A stretch of DNA of 47,035 nucleotides from Methanomicrobia archaeon DTU008 (GTDB taxonomy: Archaea > Thermoplasmatota > Thermoplasmata > Methanomassiliicoccales > Methanomassiliicoccaceae): positions 54,129 through 101,163 of the forward strand of contig LFRW01000002.1 of the NCBI GenBank assembly GCA_001512965.1, written 5' to 3'. The translations under genes and the position numbers were made by a program. Below are positions 20,949 to 44,483 of this stretch, piece by piece (positions within the stretch are counted from its first letter, which is position 1; the number at the start of each line of letters is the position of its first letter). Below the pieces are notes generated by a model that saw only the letters and a program-made list of their open reading frames with translations, had not been told where the DNA came from and searched no databases.

Positions 20949-21224
20949 TGGGCGCATAATGGCTCCCCGATGCCACTGGATGGACTTGATTGAAACAGTT
21001 GAACTGACTATGGCCCACCAGGGGAAGATGTATGTCGATGTGAACTGCCCTTTTACTGCCGTCCAACGGCCACTTACACCATGTGATGGGTCATGAGCTA
21101 TTGTGGATTGAAACGCCGTTTAGAACGATCATGACTTGATGCCCTATCATCTCTTGTCGTAAAGACACGACATCGATGGCACCTGATCAGGACTCGAGGG
21201 CCGCTTGGTCGTATCATGTCATTG

Positions 21225-21294
21225 CAATGCACACATATCGCTTCGCTGTGGAACATGGCCAAATGCCTCTGATCGGTATTTCAATGCACATATC
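21225..21294 (+). repeat. Imperfect direct repeat upstream of the DUF2206 gene
   Basis: CAATGCACACATATC at 21225-21239 and CAATGCACATATC at 21282-21294 differ by a 2-base insertion. The second copy touches the TATA-like box of the gene starting at 21334, so they could be activator sites. Confidence 0.3.
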
Positions 21295-21333
21295 TATTAA
21301 TCCCAGGATTATTTCCTGTGACATCTAACATGC

Positions 21334-23571: not shown

Positions 23572-23643
23572 CCCTATCTGCTGATGATAACGTTCGACCG
23601 CATCATTCTACGCTCTCAATATGCCGTTGAAGCCATCATCTAG

Positions 23644-23678
23644 AGGGGTCTGGCCCCTTGTTCAACCATGGTCTGTTT
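23644..23678 (+). terminator. Hairpin plus T-run after the DUF2206 gene
   Basis: AGGGG-TCTGG-CCCCT forms a short hairpin, followed about 13 bases later by GTCTGTTTTTA. It lies 73 bases after the stop codon and fits transcription ending on the plus strand. Confidence 0.4.
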
Positions 23679-23802
23679 TTATCCACATAAATTGAACATT
23701 CTCATCGAGTGCGCAACCATTCCGATCCCATCCCCCTGACGGGGCGAAACATGTCCTCCAGCCCCTTGCACATGACGAATGGACACATCAAGTAGCGACT
23801 GG

Positions 23803-23835
23803 TCACTCCTCAAGAGACTCATCAGGAGTGATGAG
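23803..23835 (-). terminator. Overlapping alternative hairpins after rfbC
   Basis: TCACTCCT (23803-23810) pairs perfectly with AGGAGTGA (23824-23831). CTCATC (23818-23823) pairs perfectly with GATGAG (23830-23835). The two structures share bases, so only one can form at a time. They start 8 bases after the rfbC stop. A terminator or RNA-stability element is likely; there is no strong U-tract. Confidence 0.35.
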
Positions 23836-23843
23836 ATGGACGG

Positions 23844-24311
23844 TCACCCCATCCTCACATCCCAATCGTACGGTATCTCATCGGTGTCGTACGGCAGCCG
23901 GTACTCATCTGGCTCTTCGTAATTGTAGAGTTCCGTCGGTGCGTTTATTATCCATGCCTCCTCGGTAGATATGCCCTTGAAACCGTGATAAACGCCCTTG
24001 GGGATCTTCACCAGAATGGGATTGCGTTCGCCCATGTGGAACTCGTTTATCATCCCCTTGGTAGGGGAACCGTCACGGGCGTCGAACAATACGACCTTGG
24101 CCATGCCGCGAATGCAAACGAAATGATCATCCTGCTTCTTGTGATAGTGCCACGCCTTGACGATCCCGGGGTAGCAAGCGGTAATGTACATCTGGCCGAA
24201 TCGTTCGAACTCCGGCCAGTCGGAGCGCAGCATCTCCATTAGCCAACCCCTTTCGTCGGGGATCGGACGCAGTTGCCTGACCATGACGCCATCGATTAGC
24301 TGTTTGGCCAT
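23844..24311 (-). CDS. rfbC: dTDP-4-dehydrorhamnose 3,5-epimerase-like cupin
   Basis: A 155-residue cupin of the RmlC family, shorter than the usual 180 or so. It shows RPIPDERGWLMEMLRSDWPEF at the N-terminus, the cupin segment KAWHYHKKQDDHFVCIRGMAKVVLFDAR and IPKGVYHGFKG, and a C-terminal PYDTDEIPYDW. The usual RG-x-H active-site context is replaced by KAWHYH, so it is a divergent member. Placement beside rfbD and rfbA supports the epimerase step to dTDP-L-rhamnose. It is transcribed divergently from rfbD across 95 bases. Confidence 0.78.
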   Translation of the reverse strand: MAKQLIDGVMVRQLRPIPDERGWLMEMLRSDWPEFERFGQMYITACYPGIVKAWHYHKKQDDHFVCIRGMAKVVLFDARDGSPTKGMINEFHMGERNPILVKIPKGVYHGFKGISTEEAWIINAPTELYNYEEPDEYRLPYDTDEIPYDWDVRMG

Positions 24312-27786: not shown

Positions 27787-29952
27787 ATGGATGATGGGAG
27801 AAAGACAGTCGTCCCTGACTTCTTGCAGGCCAACGACTGGAGGTTCGACCGATTCGCCGCGTTAGCATTGACGCTGCAGGCGATAGTTCTGCTGCTGACA
27901 TTCCTCGACGACCATGGACTCGTACCGCTGCATGTGAGAGGCCTGTTCGCATTTCTATTCTACACCTACGTCCCAGGCTTGGTACTCCTACGCGCTCTGA
28001 GGATGCATCGCCTTGGCGGCGTTATGACGACGCTTCTCTCGGTGGCCGCAAGCGTGATCATCCTGATGTTATCGGGCTTCATATTGAACCTCATCCACAC
28101 CGAGTTCGGCGGCCCCATGCCGTTCACGACCGCCACGATGCTTGCCGGCCAGACCGTCGTTTTCCTCTTGCTGCTGGCGCTTGCGTTCGTAACAGATCGC
28201 CGCTACGGTGACGACCCGACGCTTGACATTTCCCCCTTCCTCACCGCGCCGGCGTTCGCATTGTACTCGCTGCCCCTCGTAGCCGTCCTGGCGACATATT
28301 TACTGAACGGGTGGAACTTCGCATGGCTACAGGTCATCCTACTTCTCGCCGTAGCCGCCGCCGTGCTGGCTATCGTGGTGACCCGCCTGCCTTCTCAATT
28401 GTACCCTTTGGCCGTGGCCTGCATCGCTCTCGCCGTCCTTCTCCACACCTCATTGGTGAGCCGCTTCGTGGTGGAGTGGGCTGACGTCTCCTTCGAATAC
28501 TGGAGCGCCAACAAGACCTTGATTAATGGCTATTGGGACATGGTGGAGATAGGTTGGACCGATTCTGTCCTTAGCATATCCGTTCTAGCACCGATCTATG
28601 CCCTTCTCACCGGCTTCGATCTAAACACGATCTTCAAGGTATGCTACCCCACATTGTTCGTATTCGTACCGTTGGGCATATTCTGCATAGCTCGTCCCAA
28701 ACTCGGCCTCACGGGTGCATTACTGGCCGCCTTCCTTATTATCTCTGGAAGGATGTTCTTCACGGAGTTCCTGGGACTGGGGCGGCAGATGGTGGCGGAA
28801 TTGCTTTTGATTTCGATTGCCGCCATTCTACTCCATAGGTCAGATATAAAAACGCACCGTACAGTTATGGTCTGGCTCCTAGTGTTGGGCATTGCAGTTT
28901 CACACTATGCCATTGTCGCGATCGCTTTCCCCGCTCTCGTCGCCTCGGCGATTTTGTTCATTCTAATAGATAGAAAATCAATTACCCGTAGTATTCTGGC
29001 GAAGGTGGCGAGTTATATCGCTATCGTAGTTATCCCACCGGCTCTATGGTACGGCAATGTATCAGGCTCGAAGGTTCTTGATAGAATATTGAGTAACTAT
29101 CAGATGATTCTTGATGGAGGAGGCTCTTTAAAAATCAAGGACGATTTCATCCCGACCCTATTATTTCAAGGAGATGTCTCTCTACATTCATGGTCCATCG
29201 CGGTGACCTTTCTTTTGTCATTCATACTACTGATATACGGATTGCTTCACTTCATCCTCTCGAGAAGGCCTCTGACGAGTCATGATCGAGCTTACCTTGC
29301 GCTTGTCGCACCATTTATCGCGTACACTCCGGCATTGTTCTTTTTCATGGAGGACCACCTCTTCATTAGCTGGACTCGATTCTATCACATTTGTTTATTA
29401 TTCACGGCGCCCCTGATAATATATGGAGGAGTTCAGGCATTCAATGCTATGGGTAAAACTCGATCGTCAGGAAAGATTAATAAAGCATCATTACCAACCA
29501 TGGGCGCTATACTGGTCGCATTCTTCTTGAGCAGTTCGGGGATAATCAACATCGCTGTGGGTGGCCCACAGTATATCGAATTCGACATGAACATACTTGA
29601 CGTCCCCCGGCATAGCGACGGGGCGTTCCTAGCTGCGAACTTCACGATCGATAAAGGCGCCGATGCTCCCAGTATATATGCAGATGCTAACCGCGCTTAT
29701 CTTATAGACATGCTGGGAGGGAAATTTCATCCTTTGAAAGGTGCAGAATCACCACCAATCAATCGCAAAGTGAACACACTTCACTTCTTAGCTTCAGAGA
29801 ATCTCAAAGGCATGATATGGCTGGAAAATCCGAAGAATGGTAGGATAAACAAGACCTATGTTCCGATGGGAGATGCGTTCAGCAATGAACTACTGATCAT
29901 GGACAAGGTGTATTGTAGTCAGGAATCGGAGCTATACTACAGAAAGTACTGA
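27787..29952 (+). CDS. DUF2206-like large polytopic membrane protein, second copy
   Basis: A membrane protein of 721 residues from ATG 27787 (an in-frame TTG lies at 27760). It is a paralogue of the gene at 21334, sharing the N-terminal DHGLVPL...YVPGLVLLRAL region, an NGYWDM word after the large loop, SVLAPIYALLTGFDLNTIFKVCYP against ILAPMISMFGGLDLISVYKVIYP, and SHYAIVAI. Fourteen or more helices are visible, then a soluble C-terminus. Base composition changes inside the gene: sampled lines near 28.0-28.4 kb are about 55-63% GC, those near 28.9-29.1 kb about 43-45%. Function is unknown; a GT-C-like role is possible. Confidence 0.75.
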   Translation: MDDGRKTVVPDFLQANDWRFDRFAALALTLQAIVLLLTFLDDHGLVPLHVRGLFAFLFYTYVPGLVLLRALRMHRLGGVMTTLLSVAASVIILMLSGFILNLIHTEFGGPMPFTTATMLAGQTVVFLLLLALAFVTDRRYGDDPTLDISPFLTAPAFALYSLPLVAVLATYLLNGWNFAWLQVILLLAVAAAVLAIVVTRLPSQLYPLAVACIALAVLLHTSLVSRFVVEWADVSFEYWSANKTLINGYWDMVEIGWTDSVLSISVLAPIYALLTGFDLNTIFKVCYPTLFVFVPLGIFCIARPKLGLTGALLAAFLIISGRMFFTEFLGLGRQMVAELLLISIAAILLHRSDIKTHRTVMVWLLVLGIAVSHYAIVAIAFPALVASAILFILIDRKSITRSILAKVASYIAIVVIPPALWYGNVSGSKVLDRILSNYQMILDGGGSLKIKDDFIPTLLFQGDVSLHSWSIAVTFLLSFILLIYGLLHFILSRRPLTSHDRAYLALVAPFIAYTPALFFFMEDHLFISWTRFYHICLLFTAPLIIYGGVQAFNAMGKTRSSGKINKASLPTMGAILVAFFLSSSGIINIAVGGPQYIEFDMNILDVPRHSDGAFLAANFTIDKGADAPSIYADANRAYLIDMLGGKFHPLKGAESPPINRKVNTLHFLASENLKGMIWLENPKNGRINKTYVPMGDAFSNELLIMDKVYCSQESELYYRKY

Positions 29953-30084
29953 TCACGAGTCCCCATTCGGGCAAATGATAAAATATTCAGAATAAATTCT
30001 TCATACGGCGATGTTGCGGTGATAGCATTCATCGACGATCGGGCGACCACCTGTCCTGATCGACCAATATTTTGAGGTGTATAT

Positions 30085-32691: not shown

Positions 32692-33846
32692 ATGGAAGCG
32701 TCGAAGCCTCGGATCGGTGTGTTCTTTTGTGATTGCGGCGGAACTGTCGAAGGCTTGATAGACTTCGATGAGCTTGAGATGCATGCGGGCTCCCTGGAGG
32801 ACGTTGAACACGTGGAGAGGGACCGATTCATGTGCTCGTCCGATGCCGCATCACGAATGAGCCAACTGGCGAAGGCGCACGACCTGGACCGCCTGGTCAT
32901 CGGTGCCTGTTCCCCTCGAGTGTATGAGGAGGAGTTCAAGCGGGCCGCTGAGCTCGCGGGCATAAACCCCTACATGCTGGAGATCGCCAACCTGCGGGAG
33001 CAGGTGGCATGGGTCCACTCGTCGGACCGGGAAGGCGCGACCGCCAAGGCCAAGGATGCACTGACCATGGCCGTCGCGCGCTCCAGGCGTATGGAGCCCC
33101 AGACCAGGCCGCCAGGCGCGTACGTGATCGACGAGCGCTGCTCCGGCTGCGGCATCTGTCTCTCGACATGTCGCCATGATGCCATCGAGATGAAGGTGGA
33201 CCCCTGGACGGGAAAGCGTGTGGCAACGGTCGACCCTATCAGCTGTCTTGCCTGCGGAGCGTGCGTCGCCGCATGTCCGTCAGGGGCCATGGACATGGTG
33301 GGGTTCTCAAACGAGGAGATGACGGCGGAGATCGATACCTTCACCGAGGGACTTCTGGATTCGAAGGAGCCGTTCCCCGCCATACTGGTGTTCGCATGCA
33401 ACTGGTGCTCCTATCCCGCGGCCGATCTCGCTGGCCTCAAACGAATGCAGATGGAGCCCAAGTTCCACATCATACGCACACCATGCTCGGCCCGCGTCGA
33501 TCCGGAGTGGGTCCTCAGGGCGCTGTCGAACGGCGTCGACGGCGTCCTGGTCCTTGGAGGCAAGGATGGACAATGCCACTATGAGGGCGGAAACGTCCGC
33601 ACGCGGGATCGCATGATGCTGCTGACCAAGCTCCTCAGGCAGATCGGCTTCGATCCTCAGCGCTTCGCTATAGATTGGGTCAATCCAGATGAGGCAGCGA
33701 CGTTCCGGGACATCGTGAACGCCTTCATCGAAAGGGTTGAAAGACTTGGTCCGAACCCGCTGCGTGCACCGTCGGAGGAGGAGCGACCGACCTCCGCGCT
33801 GTTCCATGGAAGGGATGATTACGTGCATCCACCGTATCGTAGGTGA
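32692..33846 (+). CDS. HdrA N-terminal / 2x[4Fe-4S] / MvhD fusion lacking the FAD domain
   Basis: A 384-residue redox protein. Residues 1-130 match the N-terminus of heterodisulfide reductase HdrA (GVFFCDCGGTVEGLID with C13 and C15, MCSS with C48, GACSPRVYE with C73, INPYMLEIANLREQVAWVH). HdrA would next have a thioredoxin-reductase-like FAD domain; it is absent. Instead come two 4Fe-4S motifs (C150-C160 and C185-C195) and an MvhD/FlpD domain from about 229 (ACNWCSY with C236 and C239, C265, GKDGQCHYEGGN). MvhD passes electrons to HdrA in methanogens. It is probably a soluble electron-transfer adaptor. No hydrogenase or HdrBC genes are nearby. Confidence 0.82.
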   Translation: MEASKPRIGVFFCDCGGTVEGLIDFDELEMHAGSLEDVEHVERDRFMCSSDAASRMSQLAKAHDLDRLVIGACSPRVYEEEFKRAAELAGINPYMLEIANLREQVAWVHSSDREGATAKAKDALTMAVARSRRMEPQTRPPGAYVIDERCSGCGICLSTCRHDAIEMKVDPWTGKRVATVDPISCLACGACVAACPSGAMDMVGFSNEEMTAEIDTFTEGLLDSKEPFPAILVFACNWCSYPAADLAGLKRMQMEPKFHIIRTPCSARVDPEWVLRALSNGVDGVLVLGGKDGQCHYEGGNVRTRDRMMLLTKLLRQIGFDPQRFAIDWVNPDEAATFRDIVNAFIERVERLGPNPLRAPSEEERPTSALFHGRDDYVHPPYRR

Positions 33847-33965
33847 TCATCCTGCCCTGAGCTGGAAAGCTAGACTCGATTTTAATCTCAAGAATCGATA
33901 AAAAAATTATTCGAGGCATCTTTATATTAAACCTCGCTACTTCTGCAGTCCGAATATAATTGACG

Positions 33966-33988
33966 CTATAATCTTAATTCTAAGAATT
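33966..33988 (+). promoter_or_regulatory. TATA-like box and small palindrome before the LicD operon
   Basis: CTATAATC at 33966-33973 is the best TATA-like box, followed by the palindrome AATTC-TAA-GAATT at 33976-33988, which would sit between the box and the start of transcription. Other AT-rich candidates exist at 33921-33930, so the choice is uncertain. Confidence 0.35.
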
Positions 33989-34072
33989 GAAAGAAGCGAA
34001 GATCAAGGGATGCTTTATCATGACAGAGTTCATTTTCGGGCGTGTAGCTCATTTACAATGAAGGCCGTTATC

Positions 34073-34912
34073 ATGTCGATTGATAATACGACGCTTCGTA
34101 AATTACAGTTACTTCAATTTAAGATCCTACTAGAGGTCAAACGCATCTGCGAGAAACATGACATTCAGTATTTCCTGATGGGGGGCACACTTCTTGGAGC
34201 TGTTCGCCACCGTGGCTTCATCCCCTGGGATGATGACATAGATGTTGGGATGATGAGATCTGAATACGATCGATTTCTTGAGATTTGTAGAGAAGAGCTA
34301 TCTCCGGAGTTCTTTCTACAAACATATGAGACTGATAGCACCTATGCATACTCCTTCGCCAAGATTCGATTGAATGGCACTGAATATCCTGAACCAGCTA
34401 ACTGTGACGTACTCCACCACAAGGGAATATGCATCGACATCTTCTCGTTCGACAAAGCCCCCAACAACAATCTTCTCAGAAAGTTGTATAGAATTATTTC
34501 GATGGAAATTGATATCATGTGCAATATAAAGTATAGGTATACAAGACCTGATTCTCCCTTGAACCTGAAAATACTGCGTCTTATCTCACGTTTATTCAGT
34601 AAAGAGCAATTGATAAGGATGCGAGATGATATTAGCAAAAGGTATAATGATAAAAATACGGGCTTTTTAATGAATGGCACATTTAATTGCTACCCTTCCC
34701 ACATATTCGACCACTTCTTAAAATTGGAGTTCGAAGGTATCGAATTTCCTGTTCCTGCGGGCTACATCACGTATCTTGAATATGCTTACGGCGATTATCA
34801 AAAATTGCCACCTGAAAGCCGACGAAAAAGGCACACGCCGTACTTGCCTAACTTTGGCAAATACGCCAATAAGATCTCCTTGGATGAGATGTTGAAAGGA
34901 GAAATGCACTAG
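34073..34912 (+). CDS. LicD family phospho-aminoalcohol transferase
   Basis: A LicD protein of about 279 residues from ATG 34073; ATGs at 34010 and 34058 are in frame. The family core is present: LRKLQLLQFKILLEVKRICEKHDI, FLMGGTLLGAVRHRGFIPWDDDIDVGM with the metal-binding acidic cluster WDDDIDVG, and CIDIFSFD. LicD in bacteria moves phosphocholine from CDP-choline to cell-surface polymers, and eukaryotic fukutin relatives move ribitol phosphate. The following gene encodes a LicC-like cytidylyltransferase, so this enzyme should use the CDP-activated product of its neighbour. The operon is AT-rich relative to flanking genes. Confidence 0.88.
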   Translation: MSIDNTTLRKLQLLQFKILLEVKRICEKHDIQYFLMGGTLLGAVRHRGFIPWDDDIDVGMMRSEYDRFLEICREELSPEFFLQTYETDSTYAYSFAKIRLNGTEYPEPANCDVLHHKGICIDIFSFDKAPNNNLLRKLYRIISMEIDIMCNIKYRYTRPDSPLNLKILRLISRLFSKEQLIRMRDDISKRYNDKNTGFLMNGTFNCYPSHIFDHFLKLEFEGIEFPVPAGYITYLEYAYGDYQKLPPESRRKRHTPYLPNFGKYANKISLDEMLKGEMH

Positions 34913-34932
34913 GTTGAAGTCGGTGACATTAC

Positions 34933-36867
34933 ATGCAGGCAGTGATTTTGGCGGCAGGGATGGGAAAACGTCTAGGAAAGCATACCGAGGACGTTACAAA
35001 ATGCATGGTCAAAGTGAACAATGTAACCTTGATCGAGAGGATGCTCGGACAGCTCGATGTTCTTGACCTGTCTCGCATCATCATAGTCGTTGGATATCAG
35101 GCAAATAAGCTCAAGGATTTCATTTCGACGCTCAACATACGAACGCCTATAGTCTATGTCACAAACGAGATCTACGATAGGACCAATAACATATATTCTC
35201 TTTATCTAGCGAGAGAATATCTGTTGCAAGAGGACACTCTTCTCTTAGAATCGGACCTGATATTTGAGAGCAGGATCCTCGATCATCTACTCGATGAACC
35301 CTACCCAAATCTAGCGCTGGTGGCGAAATACGAAAGCTGGATGGATGGCACAGTTGTAATCATAGATGAGTCGGACGAGATCCTCGATTTCATCGATAAG
35401 CGCCATTTCAAGTTCTCTGACATCTCTGATTATTATAAGACGGTCAACATCTATAAGTTCAGCAAGGAATTCTCAAGAAAATATTATGTTCCGATCCTGG
35501 AGTCCTACAGTCAACTTCTTGGCAGGAATGAATATTATGAGCAGATACTACGCATCATCATCCTATTGAACAGGGCCGATCTCCTTGCCGAGGCGGTCAT
35601 AAAGGCAAAAAGAGTCCCATCGGGCGAGGTGTGGTACGAGATCGATGATATCGCCGACCTTGACATTGCCGAGTCGATGTTCACTCAGTCAGCATCTGAA
35701 AAGTTGACCAAGTTCCAGAATCGCTATGGTGGATATTGGAGATATCCACAAATGCTTGATTTTTGCTACCTGGTGAATCCCTACTTCCCCCCTCAGCAGC
35801 TCATGGATGAAATTAAGGCTAATTTCGAGCACCTGATCAGCAGCTATCCATCTGGTCTCGATATCGATTGCCTTCTAGCTGCAAAATACTTCAGAATCCC
35901 CAAAGAGAAGGTGATCGTGGGCAATGGGGCATCGGAATTGATCAAATCCCTTATGGAGGATATCAGAGGAAATGTCGGGATGATCATACCCACTTTTGAA
36001 GAATATCCGAACAGACTGGACGAGGAAGCGATCATCCACTATTCTCCGGGGAATGATAATTTTGCCTATACGGCCGATGATCTGATCGATTATTTCGGCG
36101 ACAAAGATATCTCTGCACTATTGTTGATAAATCCAGACAATCCAAGTGGCAACTACATGCCCAGGCAAGATGTCATCCGCCTTGCCGAATGGGCGGAAAG
36201 CTCAAAGGTACGACTTATCTACGATGAATCATTCGTCGATTTCGCGGACAGTGCTGAACCTCCCACATTGCTCGATGATGGGATATTGCGACGATTCCCT
36301 GGATTGGTAGTGGTGAAGAGCATCTCAAAATCGTTTGGTGTACCCGGGCTTCGCCTTGGAGTCCTGGCATCCGGAGATCCTAATCTGATAGCAAAGATGA
36401 GAAAGGATGTTTCCATATGGAACATCAACTCCTTCGCGGAATTCTTTCTACAGATCTGGGAAAAATACCAAAAAGATTATGCTTATGCGTTAAGGAGGTT
36501 CAAGAACGATCGATCCATTTATCTCAAGGAGCTTAAACGGATCAAGAATCTCAGGCCCATTCCGACTCAGGCCAATTATGTCATGTGTGAGGTTTTAGGA
36601 GGCATGACGGCAAAACATCTGTCAGAATGCCTGCTTGACCAGTTCAATATATTCATCAAGGATCTATCGAGGAAAAAGGGCATCAATGGGGAGTATGTCA
36701 GGCTTGCTGTGCGTAATGATGAAGACAATAAGCTCTTGCTCAATGCTCTCGATATTATTCTCAATGGCGATCAGTCCACGCCAAACATCACCGGATCGAT
36801 CAGCGAGCTGGACGATGCTAGGCTACCTCAATCGGCAGATGTCTCGTATTTCGATCAAGTTCATTGA
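34933..36867 (+). CDS. Fused LicC-like cytidylyltransferase and CobD/HisC-like PLP enzyme
   Basis: A 644-residue two-domain enzyme. Residues 1-245 are a sugar-nucleotidyltransferase-type domain closest in pattern to LicC and related NTP transferases: AVILAAGMGKRLGKHTEDVTKCM, LLLESDLIF and WMDGTVVI. Residues about 265-615 are a fold-type I PLP domain: VGNGASELIKSL, NPDNPSGN (400-407), YDESFVDF, and SISKSFGVPGLRLG with the cofactor lysine K466. This second part resembles threonine-phosphate decarboxylase CobD (start GGYW..LDF..NPYFPP, YPSG) more than other aminotransferases. It could make an amino-alcohol phosphate and activate it with CTP. It overlaps the next gene by one base. Confidence 0.82.
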   Translation: MQAVILAAGMGKRLGKHTEDVTKCMVKVNNVTLIERMLGQLDVLDLSRIIIVVGYQANKLKDFISTLNIRTPIVYVTNEIYDRTNNIYSLYLAREYLLQEDTLLLESDLIFESRILDHLLDEPYPNLALVAKYESWMDGTVVIIDESDEILDFIDKRHFKFSDISDYYKTVNIYKFSKEFSRKYYVPILESYSQLLGRNEYYEQILRIIILLNRADLLAEAVIKAKRVPSGEVWYEIDDIADLDIAESMFTQSASEKLTKFQNRYGGYWRYPQMLDFCYLVNPYFPPQQLMDEIKANFEHLISSYPSGLDIDCLLAAKYFRIPKEKVIVGNGASELIKSLMEDIRGNVGMIIPTFEEYPNRLDEEAIIHYSPGNDNFAYTADDLIDYFGDKDISALLLINPDNPSGNYMPRQDVIRLAEWAESSKVRLIYDESFVDFADSAEPPTLLDDGILRRFPGLVVVKSISKSFGVPGLRLGVLASGDPNLIAKMRKDVSIWNINSFAEFFLQIWEKYQKDYAYALRRFKNDRSIYLKELKRIKNLRPIPTQANYVMCEVLGGMTAKHLSECLLDQFNIFIKDLSRKKGINGEYVRLAVRNDEDNKLLLNALDIILNGDQSTPNITGSISELDDARLPQSADVSYFDQVH

Positions 36868-37820
36868 TGGAGCGATGGATCGTGAAGGTCATAACGTTCG
36901 ATGATATCCTGAACCTGCCGATCGATTCAAAGACCGTTTACGACTGGGTGAAGACATCCTTCAAACACAAACCCGAAACTCATTTGCCTCCCAAGATAAG
37001 TATGAGCAATGAAGGCATCTTCATCAATGTGATGCCCTGCATCCTCTACAATGAAGGCGTGGCAGGAGTGAAGATAGTCTCAAGATATCCTGAAAGGACT
37101 CCTACACTAAATTCCGAGATCTTATTGTATGACTATGACACCGGGGCTCTTAAAGCGATCATGGATGGCAATTATGTGACGGCCCTTCGCACTGGGGCGG
37201 TGGCGGCTCTATGTGTAGAAACGCTAGCCGTCCAAGACTATTCAGTGATAGGCATAATGGGTTTCGGCAATGTCATGAGAAAGACGCTGGACATCCTGTT
37301 CGACGTAATGGAAAAGCGCCCATTGGAAGTAAAGATATTCAGCTATAAGGACCACTTTGAGGAACTGAAGCGACGTTATAAGGGCCACGACCACATCAAT
37401 TTCGTTGAGGTCGACAATTATGAAGATGTCGTAAGGAACAGCGATGTGGTGATATCTGCGATCACGCGTGCGGAGGGAGACTTCTGCTCGAACGATTGTT
37501 TCAAAAAGGGCTGCCTCGTGGTGCCCATCCATACACTTGGCTTCCAGAATTGCGATCTATTTTTCGACAAATTCGTCGTAGACGACATAGGTCACGTCAA
37601 GGGCTTCAAATATTTCGATAGGTTCAAACAGGTTACCGAGCTAACCGACGTTCTATTGGGGAAGAGGCCCGGTAGGGTCGATGACGACGAGAGGATCCTT
37701 GCCTATTGCATCGGTGTTGCCATACACGACATATTCTTCATCAATAGGATATATGGAATGCTTGCAGATAAAGCGCGAGAGATCGATCTGAATCAACCCA
37801 TTGAAAAATATTGGGCATGA
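36867..37820 (+). CDS. Ornithine cyclodeaminase / mu-crystallin family protein
   Basis: A 317-residue NAD(P)-dependent protein of the ornithine cyclodeaminase/mu-crystallin family. The family core is visible: PPKISM, VSRYPERTPTLNSEILLYDYDTGALKAIMDGNYVTALRTGAVAAL, the nucleotide loop GIMGFGNVMRKTL, and NSDVVISAITRAE. Family members cyclise ornithine, reduce ketimines or make unusual amino acids such as in siderophore pathways. ATG 36867 overlaps the previous stop (TGATG), so it is translationally coupled to the fusion gene; it probably makes or modifies the amino-acid substrate. It is convergent with the flippase gene, 12 bases away. Confidence 0.82.
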   Translation: MERWIVKVITFDDILNLPIDSKTVYDWVKTSFKHKPETHLPPKISMSNEGIFINVMPCILYNEGVAGVKIVSRYPERTPTLNSEILLYDYDTGALKAIMDGNYVTALRTGAVAALCVETLAVQDYSVIGIMGFGNVMRKTLDILFDVMEKRPLEVKIFSYKDHFEELKRRYKGHDHINFVEVDNYEDVVRNSDVVISAITRAEGDFCSNDCFKKGCLVVPIHTLGFQNCDLFFDKFVVDDIGHVKGFKYFDRFKQVTELTDVLLGKRPGRVDDDERILAYCIGVAIHDIFFINRIYGMLADKAREIDLNQPIEKYWA

Positions 37821-37832
37821 TCCGCAACGTCA

Positions 37833-39389
37833 TCATAATGGGATCAGCTTATGGATGGGGGCCGGCAAGCATGAGCGGATGAGTTCTCTCTCATCCTCTT
37901 TCAACACCCGAAGTATCACGACCAGCCCATATATGATCGAGATCATGATGCATGATGCGACCAGCATCGATATCGAATCGACAGGAACCATCCAGACATA
38001 GATGGTGCAGATGGATGCCAATAGTATAAGCGCACTAACTCCAGTCGCTATTGGCCTGAAGAAGGTCCATAGCGGAATATGAAGAACATGCGCATTATAT
38101 GCAAGGAAGAATGCGCCAACCATCAGTAGGATCAACGAACCCGCATATGCGACACCGTACATTCCATTGTTGAATATGACGGGAAACATCATTGCGAGTG
38201 CAATGTTCAGAATGCCGATGGCGATGCTGAACAGAGCAGGTGTACGAACGCGCAGGTATGCTGCGAAAATTGGGTCCGTGCATGATGTCTGGATCCTTAC
38301 GATCATGGGGGCAAGAACGATCCATGCCAGAGGGGAGAGCTCAGCATATTCTGGACCTACCCAGATCGTCATGATCTGTGGAGAGAAAACACATAGTAAC
38401 GCGATTGGCAAAGCCATTGCAAGACCTGTGCATCGCATTGCAAAGAGGGTGAATTTCGTCAACCCTATCCTGTCATCCCTTGCACGATACGAGTAGCTCA
38501 TGGGGGTGAATGTATTGGTGACGAGTCCGGCCAGTCCTAGCAGCAGAACGCTCCATGTAAGGACCAGGGAGTAATGTGCTCCAGCAACCTCTCCGAACAT
38601 GATATTGACGATGATCAGCGCCACCTCATATCTCAAGAGATATGCCAGTTGACTGAGCGATATCCAGCCGGTGACTCCACCGATCTCTCGAAGGCGGGCC
38701 ATTACGAAATGAGATCTGGAAAGTCGAAGATATGGGCAAACTTGGTGTGAAAATCTCACCGATACGAATAACGCTGTTGCTGCTGCGATGAGGTATGAAA
38801 GGCCAACCAACGGCAGAGATGGCCCCAGAATGAAAAATAAGAGCACCACCAGGATGAGCTGAACCACTAGATTGGTGATGTTCACATAATTACGCAGATC
38901 CAGCCGATTATGGGCGAACAACACGGTCATGAAATTGCTGCTCCATGCCCGTATGAGTATTGAGCCAAATACCATGGCAAAGAGCAGGAACACACTCATC
39001 CTAGACTCGTCCCCGATGCTCACTATCGATGGGACATACCAGGCTGCAACGATCGCGATCGGGACAAGGCAGAGGACCACGCCAAGGGTGGCAAATGCAG
39101 CTGTGTTGAATGTCTCCATTGCTCTATTCGTGTCAGATCTTTGAAGATCGACAGTTAGGAATCGAGTGACGGCTGAATTTATCGCATCTATGATTATTGT
39201 CACATAGCCAGTCAAAGATGTGGCGAGTGGGATCAGGCCATATGCCGCCACGCCCAACGATTCCAAAAAGAAAGGAACGAGTGCTAAGCCAATGAATATA
39301 TTCAATACGAAATATATGATATTGGAGAGCAAGTTCGTGGAGAAGCGTTGGGCGAACTTGATATCCAGAGGGGCCGGATCCACAGTCAT
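37833..39389 (-). CDS. Wzx-type polysaccharide flippase
   Basis: A 518-residue membrane protein of the MOP superfamily, about 14 helices, closest in pattern to Wzx/RfbX O-antigen flippases: FSTNLLSNIIYFVLNIFIGLALVPFFLESLGVAAYGLIPL at the start is the usual family opening. It would flip lipid-linked glycans from the inner to the outer face of the membrane. It has its own promoter on the opposite strand to the LicD operon and ends just beyond it. That links export of a glycan with its amino-alcohol decoration. Confidence 0.88.
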   Translation of the reverse strand: MTVDPAPLDIKFAQRFSTNLLSNIIYFVLNIFIGLALVPFFLESLGVAAYGLIPLATSLTGYVTIIIDAINSAVTRFLTVDLQRSDTNRAMETFNTAAFATLGVVLCLVPIAIVAAWYVPSIVSIGDESRMSVFLLFAMVFGSILIRAWSSNFMTVLFAHNRLDLRNYVNITNLVVQLILVVLLFFILGPSLPLVGLSYLIAAATALFVSVRFSHQVCPYLRLSRSHFVMARLREIGGVTGWISLSQLAYLLRYEVALIIVNIMFGEVAGAHYSLVLTWSVLLLGLAGLVTNTFTPMSYSYRARDDRIGLTKFTLFAMRCTGLAMALPIALLCVFSPQIMTIWVGPEYAELSPLAWIVLAPMIVRIQTSCTDPIFAAYLRVRTPALFSIAIGILNIALAMMFPVIFNNGMYGVAYAGSLILLMVGAFFLAYNAHVLHIPLWTFFRPIATGVSALILLASICTIYVWMVPVDSISMLVASCIMISIIYGLVVILRVLKEDERELIRSCLPAPIHKLIPL

Positions 39390-39414
39390 CGGGATGGGAC
39401 CAATCCGGATATGA

Positions 39415-39424
39415 TTTTAAAAAG
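39415..39424 (-). promoter_or_regulatory. TATA-like box for the flippase gene
   Basis: On the minus strand CTTTTTAAAA lies about 30 bases before ATG 39389. The 284 bases between this gene and the next upstream one hold no other supported feature; an 81-codon frame on the plus strand there has no recognisable product. Confidence 0.45.
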
Positions 39425-39673
39425 ATTCACCGTCCACTATACGGCCCGCCAATCAGTTCAAGCAAGATGAGTCTCTAAATATGATCGATCTGTCATCTTT
39501 CGACATCTTGGCATCCCACCGTTCTCCATTAGGTACGCACCCTGTTCATCAATGGTATGAATTCCAGAAGGAACAGTGCTTGAATTATGAACGGAGTCAG
39601 CAAAGCACGATCGCCTCATATCATTATCTCGAGTTGCTAGTTTTCTTCATTATCCAATATGGGAACAATTTCT

Positions 39674-41527
39674 TTATTGGGCATATACGAAGGCGCTCAC
39701 GCTGCGATTCCTTAATATTTTATTAAATGACTCGTTATAAAGAGTCTCTTCCGGTTCGTAGCCTAATTGTACAGGCTTCCCCCCAATTGAAAATGTTCCA
39801 GACGCTACTTCGTCCCTCAATAGTATTACTCCCGTTAACTTGGCGAAATGCGCGTACTCCAGTCTTGTTGATATGCCTGACGCATTATGGCCCAGATCGT
39901 TCAACCGGGATGCATAGTAATCGTCCGTTCGGATGGGCATCCCGAATATTGTAGACGCCACCTCAGCAGCTTGCATTTCAGAAGTTGTAATTGAATAACG
40001 TATATTCATGCTCGGAGAGAAAAAGTCATTATCAATATTTGCAAATGTATTCGCCATGAGTAATAATGAAAGGCATGTGACCACAAACAGGGTAATTATC
40101 GCCCTAGGGCCTGGACGTCTTATTTCTCGAATTATGATGTAAAGGGCGACGCCAGCAGGAATGGAAAGTAATATCTGAGATATGAGCCACCATCGCTCAT
40201 TGAAGCCATATGCCCCTAGTAGCTCAAATGATGTACCGATCACAAATGGTGTTAACGCGACTAGAGCGATCGGCACACCATATGGATATCTCTTTCGGAA
40301 ATATATCAGCACCAATATCCCCAAGATCGAAAGGGAGTAGAACACAAAGATCCCTGCATAGTTGATCAATTGGTCTTGGATCGACGGGTCGATCAATTGC
40401 GAAATCATTTGAGGGGGGTCCGCACCACCACTTTGGGGAGGTAGGTATCCGCTGCCTTTCTTTGGGGGGTTTATTAAAATGTCTAAATGCCCTATCCATG
40501 ACCAACCGAGTAAAACCAGGACGCCACTGATGAGCAAAGAGGGTAGCGAAATCCTCCTTTCGATTTTCAATTCTTTGAATATTCTTATTGTTACATATAT
40601 AACAAATAAACTTATCAATATGAATAATATCGCAATAGAATGCATGAAGAAGGTGCTGGCAAATAGCACCACCATTAGGAACGCATATCGATAATGGCCC
40701 TTATCTTGTCTGATAAGTAGGTATAGGAATACTGCACACAGGATCAGGGCAAGTGTGTTGGGATATGCCAGATACGCCCCCTGGATATGGAAACTTACGA
40801 TCCCAACCACCAATGATGAGAACAGAGAAATTGTTACGTTCGATGTAACGAACTTAGTGATCAGATAGATCAGTATTATATTTAGTACCAATATGGCCGT
40901 AGATACTGTCAATAACAGCGTAAGTTTAAAACTGAGAGACGTCATCATTTGAGAAGCGCCCAAGATTATGTGGTAGGCAGGCATGAGCTTGTAATTGCCA
41001 GAATAGGGAGGCATTTCTCCCTGTTCGATCAATCCGTTCACGACCCATCTATGGTAGAACGGGTCAATGCCGACCAGGTCTGGAAAAATTAGTATCTGGG
41101 AGAAGACTGCCAATCCACAAAGAATTATGATCTGACCCAATATCATGGATTTCATTCGATGGCTTGCATACACTATCTCTGTCGAAATGATCCCAGCCAT
41201 CACTGCTACTAAGATGAAATATGCAATTGGGCGCTCGTAAATATTTTCATTATAGTATAAAATCAGTATAGTGATGGTTAACAAGAGAAAGAAGGCTGTA
41301 GCTCCAGCCCAAACCACTCGTTTTGAACTTCTGAATGGTATTTCACCCATCCCTTTTCTCCTTATGAACAACCAAATGAGGCAAGGAACGATCGCAAATG
41401 GGATCGCGTAGAAATAAATGGGTCTGGCAGAACTAGTCAACATATATATTAAAACCAGAGGGCTGGCGATCAAGACCATTAGTGCTAAAAACAGGTCTAG
41501 ATCCGGATGCCTTTCTTTAAAAATCAT
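39674..41527 (-). CDS. GT-C-like polytopic membrane protein
   Basis: A 617-residue protein with about 13 helices and a soluble C-terminal domain of about 110 residues. A first large loop reads FPDLVGIDPFYHRWVVNGLIEQG with acidic and His residues, followed by MPAYHIILGASQM. This arrangement resembles GT-C glycosyltransferases and archaeal membrane proteins of the DUF2206 neighbourhood, but I see no decisive motif. It may transfer or polymerise lipid-linked sugars. It is the most AT-rich gene of the window; one sampled 60-base line near 40.6 kb has only 11 G or C. A TATA-like box lies near 41570-41580 and GGGTGAAGGGG precedes the start. Confidence 0.65.
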   Translation of the reverse strand: MIFKERHPDLDLFLALMVLIASPLVLIYMLTSSARPIYFYAIPFAIVPCLIWLFIRRKGMGEIPFRSSKRVVWAGATAFFLLLTITILILYYNENIYERPIAYFILVAVMAGIISTEIVYASHRMKSMILGQIIILCGLAVFSQILIFPDLVGIDPFYHRWVVNGLIEQGEMPPYSGNYKLMPAYHIILGASQMMTSLSFKLTLLLTVSTAILVLNIILIYLITKFVTSNVTISLFSSLVVGIVSFHIQGAYLAYPNTLALILCAVFLYLLIRQDKGHYRYAFLMVVLFASTFFMHSIAILFILISLFVIYVTIRIFKELKIERRISLPSLLISGVLVLLGWSWIGHLDILINPPKKGSGYLPPQSGGADPPQMISQLIDPSIQDQLINYAGIFVFYSLSILGILVLIYFRKRYPYGVPIALVALTPFVIGTSFELLGAYGFNERWWLISQILLSIPAGVALYIIIREIRRPGPRAIITLFVVTCLSLLLMANTFANIDNDFFSPSMNIRYSITTSEMQAAEVASTIFGMPIRTDDYYASRLNDLGHNASGISTRLEYAHFAKLTGVILLRDEVASGTFSIGGKPVQLGYEPEETLYNESFNKILRNRSVSAFVYAQ

Positions 41528-41933
41528 TTATGTCCCCTTCACCCAATAGCATTTCAAAATGACCTGCATTATATTTAATCAATTCATTAGGATATTTGGA
41601 AATGGAACTGTCGAATGCGATCCCACCCGATGTGAAGAGCATCTCAACACCGCGACTTCATAAGGACGGACCAGGAGAATCGATGATTGTCAATGTCGAA
41701 AGGATCAGCATAATGTTGGACATGAGTCGATTCCGACAATCGCGACCATCGTTTTACTTTATATACCTTGCTCAGTGGGCCCTACAGTGTTCGATCAATT
41801 TTTTTTATAATGTTCACACATCAGACGCATCACAGTAAGCGCAATGACGTTTTATCCTGGCTACAGTGATGTTGAAGAACCATCAGGCGATGAGTTGTAA
41901 TAGCCTTGGTTATCTATGATTTTTGGTGCAACC
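41528..41933. other. Divergent intergenic region, 406 bases
   Basis: It contains the TATA-like TTAAATATAAT for the leftward gene near 41570-41580 and an 80-codon plus-strand frame (41596-41838) with no family resemblance that I reject as a gene. The boundary from AT-rich to GC-rich DNA falls at its right end. Confidence 0.4.
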
Positions 41934-42230
41934 ATGTACAGACCAGATGATAGAAGGCGACGGCGCCGCTACGGTCCGGGGCCGTGGTGGCCGCCATGGT
42001 ACGATCCCCGATATGGACCTCCGCCAGACGTGATCTATCCTGGCTATCAGCCCTGGGACCCATACAGGCCTGCCATGGTGAGGCGGTCCGAGGATGAGGT
42101 CGCGGCCCTGGAGAGGGAGTTGGAGGAACTGGAGGACGAAAAGGTCGAGATCGAACGGACCATCGAGGACATCAAGAAGGAGATAAACCGTCGGAAGAGG
42201 GAGAGCGCCTCAAGGTCCGACATCGCCTGA
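41934..42230 (+). CDS. Small protein: Pro/Tyr/Trp-rich head and charged coiled coil
   Basis: A 98-residue protein. Residues 1-47 are rich in arginine, proline, tyrosine and tryptophan (YGPGPWWPPWYDPRYGPPP). Residues about 50-90 form a charged heptad coiled coil (EVAALERELEELEDEKVEIERTIEDI), followed by a basic tail. This head-plus-coil layout resembles small DUF5320-type proteins of anaerobes, but the assignment is weak. ATG 41934 is preferred over ATG 41916 because GGTG precedes it by about 9 bases. Function is unknown; it may multimerise or bind a surface. Confidence 0.65.
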   Translation: MYRPDDRRRRRRYGPGPWWPPWYDPRYGPPPDVIYPGYQPWDPYRPAMVRRSEDEVAALERELEELEDEKVEIERTIEDIKKEINRRKRESASRSDIA

Positions 42231-42257
42231 AGGAAAAAGGGAGAAAGGGGGAAAGGG
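42231..42257 (-). terminator. Pyrimidine-rich terminator after actP
   Basis: On the minus strand the bases after the actP stop read CCC-TTT-CCCCC-TTT-CTCCC-TTTTT-CC, a pyrimidine-rich tract suited to archaeal termination. Confidence 0.35.
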
Positions 42258-42259
42258 TT

Positions 42260-43765
42260 TCAGCCCGCGGTCTTCTCCGTCGCCTCGCTCTTCACACGGT
42301 CACTTGTAAGCAGTGACACGCCCATCGTCACCGCGAAGCCGAGCGGGATCGACACGATGCCGGGGTTGAAGAGCGAGAACAGCGCGCCCTCGCTCATCAT
42401 CGCGGGCGAGACGACGATCAGCGCGATCGACGAGATCAGCCCTACGACTATGCCCGTCACGATGCCCCACTCGGTCGTCCTCTTCCAGAACAGCGTGCAT
42501 AGCAGCGCCGGAAGGTTGGCGGACGCGGCGATGGCGAAGGCCAGGCCGACCAGGAAGGCGACGTTCTGCCCCTTGGCAAGGATGCCCAGGACGATCGCGA
42601 TGACGCCCACGCTGATGGCGGTCGCCTTGGAGATGCGCAGTGCGCGCTTCTCATCGGTCTTTCGCCCAAGCACCTCGGTGTATATGTCGTGGGCGATCGC
42701 CCCTGCGGACGCCATGATGAGACCGGCCACAGTACCGAGGATGGTGGCGAAGGCGATCGACGAGATGATGGCGTAGAAGGCCTCCCCGCCGATATGCATG
42801 GCGAGCATCGGAGCGGCAAGGTTCGCATCGCTCGGATCGAGCGTACCGAAGAAGTTCGCTCCAAGTCCGAGATAGAGGGTCAGGAGATAGAATATCCCCA
42901 TGACCACGATGGCGATCACCGTCGACTTCCTTGCATCCGCTGGCTTGGGCACGGTGAAGTACCGTATCAGGATGTGGGGCAGCGCCGCGGTACCGAGGAT
43001 AAGGCCCATGGCCAGGGAGACGAAGTCAAGCGGGTTGGTGTACTTCATACCCGGCGACATGAACACCTCGCCCGGAACCTGGGTCACCCCGCTGGACGTG
43101 GGTATGTTCACCGTACCACTGAGGAACTGCTCCAGGAATCCTATCGGCCACATTCCCGCGACGACCAGCACGCCTATCGTCAGGGCGAGCGCCGCGATGA
43201 GGAGCAGGAATCCCTTGATGAACTGCACCCATGTGGTCGACACCATGCCTGCCGTGGCGACGATCAGGATGACAAGGGCGCCGATGACCACTACGCCGAT
43301 CTCGTAATCGAGGCCGATGAGCGGACCCACTATGGCGCCGGAGCCGACCATCTGCGGTATCAGATAGAACACCGAGATGACCAGCGTGCTTATCGCCGCC
43401 ACTAGGCGTATCTTCTTACTCTTGAACTTCGACGTGAGGGCGTCGGCGAAGGTGTACTTGCCGATCGCGCGCAGCGGTTCGGCCACAAGGAACAGCGCCA
43501 CGATCCATCCAGCCAGGAAGCCGATGGCGTAGATGAAGCCGTCATATCCGGAGAAGGCCACCAGGCCCGTGATGCCAAGGAACGATGCGGCGCTGAGGTA
43601 GTCGCCGGCGATGGCGAACCCGTTCACGACCCATCGGACCCCGCCTCCCGCGACGTAATAGTGCCCTGCGGTGCGGACCCTTCGGGCGGCATATATGGAT
43701 ATGCCGATGGTGGCCAGGGTGATGAGGACGAATATCGCGAACGACAGTGGCTGAAGTTCTGCCAT
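42260..43765 (-). CDS. actP: Cation/acetate symporter, sodium:solute symporter family
   Basis: A 501-residue sodium:solute symporter with about 13 helices. It matches ActP-type monocarboxylate permeases: YYVAGGGVRWVVNGFAIAGDYLSAASFLGITG at the first two helices, GKYTFADALTSKF, and AALPHILIRYFTVPKPADARKS. ActP takes up acetate and related short acids with a cation. It starts one base after the stop of the USP-DUF485 gene, so the two are co-transcribed. In bacteria the partner of actP is the small DUF485 protein YjcH; here that partner is part of a fusion. Acetate uptake fits a heterotroph or an acetate-requiring methanogen. Confidence 0.88.
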   Translation of the reverse strand: MAELQPLSFAIFVLITLATIGISIYAARRVRTAGHYYVAGGGVRWVVNGFAIAGDYLSAASFLGITGLVAFSGYDGFIYAIGFLAGWIVALFLVAEPLRAIGKYTFADALTSKFKSKKIRLVAAISTLVISVFYLIPQMVGSGAIVGPLIGLDYEIGVVVIGALVILIVATAGMVSTTWVQFIKGFLLLIAALALTIGVLVVAGMWPIGFLEQFLSGTVNIPTSSGVTQVPGEVFMSPGMKYTNPLDFVSLAMGLILGTAALPHILIRYFTVPKPADARKSTVIAIVVMGIFYLLTLYLGLGANFFGTLDPSDANLAAPMLAMHIGGEAFYAIISSIAFATILGTVAGLIMASAGAIAHDIYTEVLGRKTDEKRALRISKATAISVGVIAIVLGILAKGQNVAFLVGLAFAIAASANLPALLCTLFWKRTTEWGIVTGIVVGLISSIALIVVSPAMMSEGALFSLFNPGIVSIPLGFAVTMGVSLLTSDRVKSEATEKTAG

Positions 43766-43766
43766 G

Positions 43767-44483
43767 TCACTCCTCCCTCTCGGCTCTCACGGCGTAAGCG
43801 TTGAACCCTATGGCCAGCGCGATCGTGAGGATGATGATCAGTATGCCGGACACCAGGCCGACGTTCAGCCCGAACGTCGGGATCTGGAACACGTCCCTGA
43901 TATACGAGCCGAACAGCACGAAGATCGAGTAGCCGATCACGTATGCTGCGAAGAGGTACAGGCCCACACGGAACTGTCTCGTCCTCGTTATGGCCGCGAC
44001 CGCCTTGGCGGGGCTGGGCTCGATGACCTCTCTCACCCTTGCCTTCACCATCTTGGTCTCCTCTTTGGTCGGCTTGACGACGAGCACCGAGACCGGAGCC
44101 TGACTGACGACCGACTTGGCAACGCTGCCTAGATACAGTCGGTTCAGCCTCTTAAGCGACGAGGTGCCCAGCACGATCATCTCCGCCCCCGTCTCCTCGG
44201 CAGCACGGATGATCTCCCCGACCACGGGCCCCTCTCGGACCATTACCGTCGTCGGCACCCTGTCCAGGGCCGCGAGCTCCTTGGCATATTCGATGCCATC
44301 CTCTCCTTCCGGCCTCTGCAGCGCCGCCGATTCCGACGCGAGTTCCAGAGATGTCATGGGACTCTGTTCGACCACTCTCAGGATCACTAATGTCGCGGAA
44401 CGCTGCTTCGCCTCGGCCACCGCCCTTACGGTAGCGGCGAGGGCCGGCAGAGAGCCGTCGGTAGCGAGCAGTATGGTGCTCAC
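43767..44483 (-). CDS. Universal stress protein fused to DUF485 membrane domain
   Basis: A 238-residue protein. Residues 1-145 are a universal stress protein domain (STILLATDGSLPALAATVRAV, MVREGPVVGEIIRAAEETGAEMIVLGTSS, LGSVAKSVVSQAPVSVLVV). Residues about 170-238 hold two helices of the DUF485 type (FRVGLYLFAAYVIGYSIFVLFGSYI and VGLVSGILIIILTIALAIGFNAYAV). DUF485 proteins accompany ActP symporters in bacteria. The nucleotide-binding USP domain may let ATP or stress signals control the transporter. The start is GTG 44483 after GAGGAGGG. Confidence 0.85.
   Translation of the reverse strand: MSTILLATDGSLPALAATVRAVAEAKQRSATLVILRVVEQSPMTSLELASESAALQRPEGEDGIEYAKELAALDRVPTTVMVREGPVVGEIIRAAEETGAEMIVLGTSSLKRLNRLYLGSVAKSVVSQAPVSVLVVKPTKEETKMVKARVREVIEPSPAKAVAAITRTRQFRVGLYLFAAYVIGYSIFVLFGSYIRDVFQIPTFGLNVGLVSGILIIILTIALAIGFNAYAVRAEREE

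Follow-up and report, generated by a model that had tools for sequence, protein, structure and literature searches.

A horizontally acquired candidate surface-decoration cassette with an exchangeable dehydrogenase gene in a methanogenic archaeon

Introduction

In the Lic-1 (LicABCD) phosphocholine pathway of Haemophilus and Streptococcus, a phospho-alcohol is activated with cytidine triphosphate (CTP) by LicC and then transferred to a glycan by LicD (PMC10434233). Related combinations are found among the PntC phosphonate cytidylyltransferases, in which the cytidylyltransferase is fused to a pyridoxal phosphate (PLP) enzyme and LicD is encoded nearby (PMC6697681; structure 6pd1). CobD-like PLP enzymes have been linked to ethanolamine phosphate, which Campylobacter Cj1436 produces from serine phosphate for the capsule (PMC12409886), and of which Sulfurospirillum SMUL_1544 is the proposed maker (PMC4585668). 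Here, we describe how such elements are combined in a stretch of 47,035 nucleotides from Methanomicrobia archaeon DTU008, hereafter the window (bases 54129-101163 of a 101-kb contig, in a genome of 1.76 Mb that is 99% complete). It carries a tight plus-strand operon of a LicD gene, a gene for a cytidylyltransferase/CobD-like fusion and a gene of the ornithine cyclodeaminase (OCD)/mu-crystallin family, on which a Wzx-type flippase gene converges.

The third gene brings in a different chemistry. Octopine dehydrogenases catalyze a reductive coupling between amino groups and 2-keto acids, and SbnB, a member of the OCD family, performs the oxidative counterpart on an N-(1-carboxyalkyl)amine-type compound. 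The O-antigen of Proteus mirabilis O14 contains N-(1-carboxyethyl)ethanolamine phosphate.

The operon and its proteins

The genes under study are arranged as follows (positions in the window):

34010-34912, plus strand: LicD-family phosphotransferase (PF04991, 150.8 bits; GTLLGAVRH..WDDDID motif intact), with the start probably about 60 bases further in
34933-36867, plus strand: fusion of a LicC-like cytidylyltransferase and a predicted CobD-like PLP decarboxylase (profile matches, structure match 6oux, E106, D108, K466)
36867-37820, plus strand: OCD/mu-crystallin-family dehydrogenase belonging to a fusion-linked clade; candidate N-tailoring imine reductase (PF02423, AlphaFold model, tree)
36730-37863, no strand: replaced segment, with OCD in the window and octopine dehydrogenase in the sister species RumEn M1 (blastn against locus L030)
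37833-39389, minus strand: Wzx-type flippase (RumEn M1 copy 70% identical; homologues match PF01943)

A previous sequence-only reading had described the first three genes as tightly coupled, with the flippase converging on them, and both the positions and the arrangement of the four are confirmed: 20 bases separate LicD from the fusion, the TGA stop codon of the fusion and the ATG of the OCD gene at 36867 overlap by one base (TGATG), and the flippase converges. The OCD start in the list of open reading frames is a TTG at 36864, one codon upstream of that ATG.

LicD is a clear member of its family (150.8 bits against a cut-off of 22.6), and the nucleotide-binding residues on which the same reading had depended are intact in a motif alignment, which recovers the DxD-type residues 'GTLLGAVRH..FIPWDDDID'. 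As a predicted phosphotransferase, LicD would move a phospho-alcohol from cytidine diphosphate (CDP) to a glycan. Since blastn homology to RumEn M1 starts only at 34067, translation of LicD probably begins at an internal Met some 60 bases past 34010. LicD alone is not rare in the phylum of the window (Thermoplasmatota), where it occurs in 30 of 390 genomes. The profile search gave no Pfam match for the window flippase itself; two of its homologues, at loci L042 and L033, match Polysacc_synt (PF01943). When the window is compared with RumEn M1, LicD is the least conserved of the cassette proteins (56% identity, against 70% for the flippase and 78% for the fusion), which would fit an enzyme adapting to a changed donor.

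The fusion protein comprises a LicC-like half (about residues 1-250, with NTP_transf_3 at 3-134) and a CobD-like PLP half (about 260-611, with Aminotran_1_2 at 317-606). E106, D108 and the PLP-lysine motif SISKSFGVPGLRLG (K466) are invariant, the lysine lying in the SxSKxxGxPGxRxG signature of CobD-like PLP enzymes. The protein is classed as CobD-like and not as CobD proper, as its best NCBIfam match, TIGR01140, reaches 164.9 bits against an equivalog cut-off of 290.55; indeed, the CobD-like half scores below every NCBIfam cut-off. Its closest solved structure is the CobD-like enzyme 6oux (157 bits, versus 94 for Salmonella CobD), which we take to be SMUL_1544. Profile searches of the window's own genome found neither phosphoenolpyruvate (PEP) mutase (PF13714) nor the choline kinase LicA (PF01633), so that a phosphonate route and choline salvage, respectively, are unlikely and were rejected. 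Given these two absences and the parallels with 6oux/SMUL_1544 and Cj1436, CDP-ethanolamine is the likely product of the fusion.

The third protein belongs to the OCD/mu-crystallin superfamily (PF02423, 103 bits). Its AlphaFold model, a confident one (pLDDT 88), matches OCD-family structures with a Foldseek probability of 1.00 and a TM score of about 0.8, the nearest folds being P2C reductase, alanine dehydrogenase, SbnB and iminosuccinate reductase; the structure search does not separate the first three as the nearest. A true ornithine cyclodeaminase was rejected because the best score stays far below equivalog level (102.6 versus 417 bits) and the canonical Asp, which we take to be the catalytic one, is replaced by L225. 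Nor is the protein an SbnB (TIGR03944, 81 versus 326.9 bits). The fusion-linked clade to which it belongs retains the family Lys/Arg (K70, R109), has lost the canonical Asp and carries a nearly invariant P-x-HT-x-GF-x-NCD motif of its own; the lost Asp and the private motif fit a separate specificity.

Exchange of the dehydrogenase gene

RumEn M1 (genome G009) and the window's genome form a sister pair within the same GTDB genus. By blastn against the RumEn M1 locus L030, homology extends over 34067-36729 and 37864-39380, with none in between. The gene that takes the place of OCD in RumEn M1 encodes an octopine/opine dehydrogenase (PF02317, 96.5 bits against a cut-off of 30; octopine dehydrogenase 3c7a, E 6e-28). 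This is a clean replacement of an OCD by an octopine dehydrogenase cassette between orthologous flanks, inside one genus. In the public record, the RumEn M1 fusion gene (L030/L034, 2481-4309) is frameshifted near residue 530-545, reflecting either a sequencing error or decay.

The same two partners recur on a wider scale. A scan of GTDB genomes carrying the fusion yielded at least 477 relatives among 589 candidates, and the best 80 loci were analyzed. Among these, 16 have an OCD gene no more than 1.5 kb from the fusion, 33 have a gene of the octopine dehydrogenase family there, and two have both. In the bacterial loci, OCD accounts for 11 of the 144 immediate neighbours versus 3 of the 850 other open reading frames (Fisher p = 1e-7), and octopine dehydrogenase for 30/144 versus 2/850 (p = 2e-24), thus placing both next to the fusion far above chance. 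Adjacent partners are on the strand of the fusion in 40 out of 41 cases, with a median gap of 5 bases. A genome-wide check covering 25 genomes found no second clear OCD in 15 of the 16 OCD-linked genomes, while none of the seven octopine-dehydrogenase-linked genomes in this check has a further gene of that kind besides the linked one.

Along the fusion tree, OCD and opine dehydrogenase have changed places repeatedly: 14 changes are required for the OCD label, against 14.0 for shuffled labels, and the two members of several sister pairs have different partners, the window and RumEn M1 among them. This is a quick tree with many weak forks whose single placements are unreliable; the pair of the window and RumEn M1 has a support of 100. 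Butyrivibrio likewise has both types, with OCD in AE3009 (L107) and opine dehydrogenase in INlla14 (L096). In Oceanirhabdus (locus L035) the order is CDP-alcohol transferase-fusion-OCD, with no LicD adjoining the fusion, and three archaeal LicD loci lacking the fusion have neither OCD nor opine dehydrogenase. The partner therefore probably serves the product of the fusion rather than the acceptor of LicD. The OCD-like protein had been singled out as the least explained part of the system, with its role left open, and the swap with opine dehydrogenases now gives it a likely one.

Bacterial origin of the cassette

Apart from RumEn M1, the best 80 fusion loci are bacterial, and include Lachnospiraceae, Ruminococcus, Bacteroidales, Spirochaetes and others. 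The order LicD-fusion-OCD is found in Butyrivibrio AE3009 (L107, with gaps of a few bases) and in a Bacteroidales locus (L065). In a Spirochaetes locus (L099), a glycosyltransferase gene lies between LicD and the fusion, and a second LicD follows OCD. The window OCD is 51% identical to that of Oceanirhabdus, and groups with OCDs of Clostridiaceae and Lachnospiraceae in the fusion-linked clade, apart from other OCDs, with 100/100 support against a background set of 12 sequences only. Since bacteria have the same gene order and the archaeal copy nests among theirs, the cassette is a bacterial one that the archaeon acquired horizontally, and no archaeal invention. We rejected a native archaeal alanine dehydrogenase as the ancestor of the window OCD, because the window's genome is the only one with any OCD gene in its GTDB family (15 genomes) and the OCDs native to other members of the order are distant from it.

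The expectation that the three genes would be conserved together elsewhere is thus borne out, in bacteria, at the cost of the view of an archaeal system. The fusion has hundreds of carriers, mostly animal-associated bacteria; many of the best 80 come from rumen, chicken or other animal guts, and free-living Bacillota are also among them.

A variable surface-glycan site

The operon lies in an AT-rich island with the following surroundings:

32692-33846, plus strand: left anchor of the insertion site, HdrA/FlpD-like iron-sulfur protein (profile match, match to genome G013)
33852-41897, no strand: AT-rich island of 8.05 kb (41-49% GC per gene versus about 58% around; edges taken from the match to the unoccupied site of the congener G013)
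39674-41527, minus strand: multispanning membrane protein of 617 aa, with no significant family match
42260-43765, minus strand: right anchor, sodium:solute (acetate-type) symporter (profile match; adjoins the left anchor in G013)

The congeneric genome G013 matches the window at 32707-33851 and 41898-44000, with about 57 bp between the matches versus 8.05 kb in the window. In RumEn M1, the same symporter borders a glycan island that is longer and of different content, including NeuB-like and NeuA-like genes. The empty site in G013 and the different island in RumEn M1 therefore identify a variable surface-glycan site.

The membrane protein of 617 aa is probably a GT-C-type glycosyltransferase or polymerase. 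The NeuB-like and NeuA-like (nonulosonic acid) genes of RumEn M1 are at L030 9017-10694. At the right edge of the island (41916-42230) lies a small conserved gene (RRRRRYGPGPWWPPW..., followed by an EELEDEKVEIERTIEDIKKEI coiled coil), kept in both G013 and RumEn M1. Two more AT-rich stretches of the window (21000-24000 and 29000-30000, about 44-47% GC) contain DUF2206 membrane proteins and are probably other surface-glycan genes. A viral scan gave weak partial matches only.

Proposed pathway and alternatives

From the computed families, motifs, gene order, association, clade, transfer and dehydrogenase replacement, we infer all substrates and products of the following pathway, as well as the order of its second and third steps. 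The CobD-like half would first decarboxylate O-phospho-L-serine to phosphoethanolamine, which the LicC-like half would couple to CTP to give CDP-ethanolamine. The OCD protein, using NAD(P)H, would then join the amino group of (CDP-)phosphoethanolamine with a 2-keto acid such as pyruvate, yielding N-(1-carboxyalkyl)ethanolamine phosphate; in RumEn M1, the opine dehydrogenase would perform the same type of step. Finally, LicD would move the phospho-amino-alcohol onto a lipid-linked glycan that Wzx would flip outwards. Reductive N-carboxyalkylation is the most economical guess for the third step, as both of the unrelated families that substitute for one another share this chemistry. We lean, by a small measure, towards a horizontally acquired cassette that makes an N-carboxyalkylated phosphoethanolamine surface tag in these four steps. 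The sequence-only idea of a system that makes, activates, attaches and exports a phospho-amino-alcohol thus survives as the best reading, given the LicD motif and the lack of PEP mutase and choline kinase, but with a bacterial origin.

Several observations weigh against this pathway. Both dehydrogenases are present at loci L064 and L076, where one of them would be superfluous if they catalyzed the same step; about 40% of the fusion loci have neither, indicating that plain phosphoethanolamine is viable; and a methyltransferase follows the fusion in the archaeal locus L031 (G051) and in the cyanobacterial L026, so that other or no N-tailoring is possible. In the open-access literature, we found no N-carboxyalkyl phosphoethanolamine made in this way, and nothing relevant on LicD with opine dehydrogenase or OCD, or on N-carboxyethyl ethanolamine. 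It may be that the tailoring step is dispensable, or that keto acid or stereochemistry is not the same for the two families.

Other genes beside the fusion vary as well. In L031 (5118-8625, G051:C17; same order, GTDB family f5), the fusion occurs with a divergent CDP-alcohol phosphatidyltransferase and an S-adenosylmethionine methyltransferase, which suggests a lipid head group or an N-methylated variant. In Fusobacterium and several Bacillota (L025 10820-11869; L036, L038, L039), the gene directly after the fusion encodes a DUF1015 protein; a serine kinase supplying O-phosphoserine is conceivable, but no backing paper was found. ATP-grasp proteins resembling L-amino-acid ligases adjoin the fusion at loci with no dehydrogenase (L077 11870-13084, L093 8609-9814), perhaps providing a third kind of amino-group tailoring.

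An unlikely alternative is that OCD and opine dehydrogenase act upstream, as amino-acid dehydrogenases that supply or replace the amino acid for the CobD-like half, leading to another amino alcohol with no N-substitution. Alanine dehydrogenase and iminosuccinate reductase are indeed among the nearest folds of OCD, and the substrate of the CobD-like half, under all NCBIfam cut-offs, is not fixed by family; yet opine dehydrogenases make no free amino acids and still replace OCD at the same spot, and a generic precursor enzyme is not expected to be nearly confined to one operon. Quite unlikely is a tag of plain phosphoethanolamine or aminopropanol phosphate, with the dehydrogenase modifying another part of the glycan, for example an amino-acid or lactyl-type sugar substituent. 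The fusion loci with neither partner agree with it, as does the occurrence of N-(1-carboxyethyl)amino acids as sugar substituents in bacterial glycans (PMC10609480), whereas the strand and spacing of adjacent partners (40/41 on the fusion's strand, median gap 5 bases) and the persistence of the partner with no adjoining LicD, beside a CDP-alcohol transferase (L035), tie it to the fusion. We consider it very improbable that the CDP-alcohol serves a membrane lipid head group: fusions do lie at or near CDP-alcohol phosphatidyltransferases in L031, L035, L050 and L053, but in the window the partners are LicD and a flippase, and the island has no CDP-alcohol transferase. A broken cassette or binning artefact, to which the frameshifted RumEn M1 fusion might point, is hardly credible, as all window genes are open with motifs kept and the island lies within a 101-kb contig between archaeal-type anchors that are adjacent in G013.

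Returning to N-carboxyalkylation, a broader proposal can be put forward tentatively, with slightly less than even confidence: that N-carboxyalkylation of (CDP- or phospho-)ethanolamine by two unrelated, freely interchangeable dehydrogenase families is a widespread undescribed step in the decoration of surface glycans, and that a methanogen genus, having obtained the module from gut bacteria, replaces the tailoring gene alone, as a serotype-like switch in an archaeon. Such a step would provide one OCD subfamily and one opine dehydrogenase subfamily, both annotated only by superfamily, with a function that can be tested, and many rumen and gut bacteria would be expected to display acidic, amino-acid-like tags on their surfaces. 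The uptake and reshuffling of a bacterial-type surface-antigen locus by an archaeon is also relevant to the encounters of gut methanogens with phages, hosts and neighbours.

Comparison with known systems

The cassette shares with Lic-1 the predicted LicC-like activation and LicD transfer, but its genome has no LicA-type choline kinase, and the amine is apparently made by the fused decarboxylase and then tailored. It resembles the PntC fusions in architecture and in the proximity of LicD, whereas its PLP half is class I/II and CobD-like, not class V, and the genome has no PEP mutase. Ethanolamine phosphate, as proposed for the fusion, connects it to Cj1436 and SMUL_1544; however, the Campylobacter product is amide-linked to glucuronic acid and that of Sulfurospirillum enters a cobamide, and neither enzyme comes with a cytidylyltransferase fusion or LicD. 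The window OCD is similar to SbnB (staphyloferrin B) and octopine dehydrogenase in fold and, as proposed here, in NAD(P) use and N-(1-carboxyalkyl)amine-type substrates, but differs from SbnB in score (81 versus 326.9 bits) and genetic context. The N-(1-carboxyethyl)ethanolamine phosphate of Proteus mirabilis O14 represents the product class proposed for the cassette. Lastly, the site is comparable to bacterial capsule and O-antigen hot spots with serotype switching in its fixed flanks, variable AT-rich glycan genes and tailoring-gene exchange, the difference being that it is found in a methanogenic archaeon.

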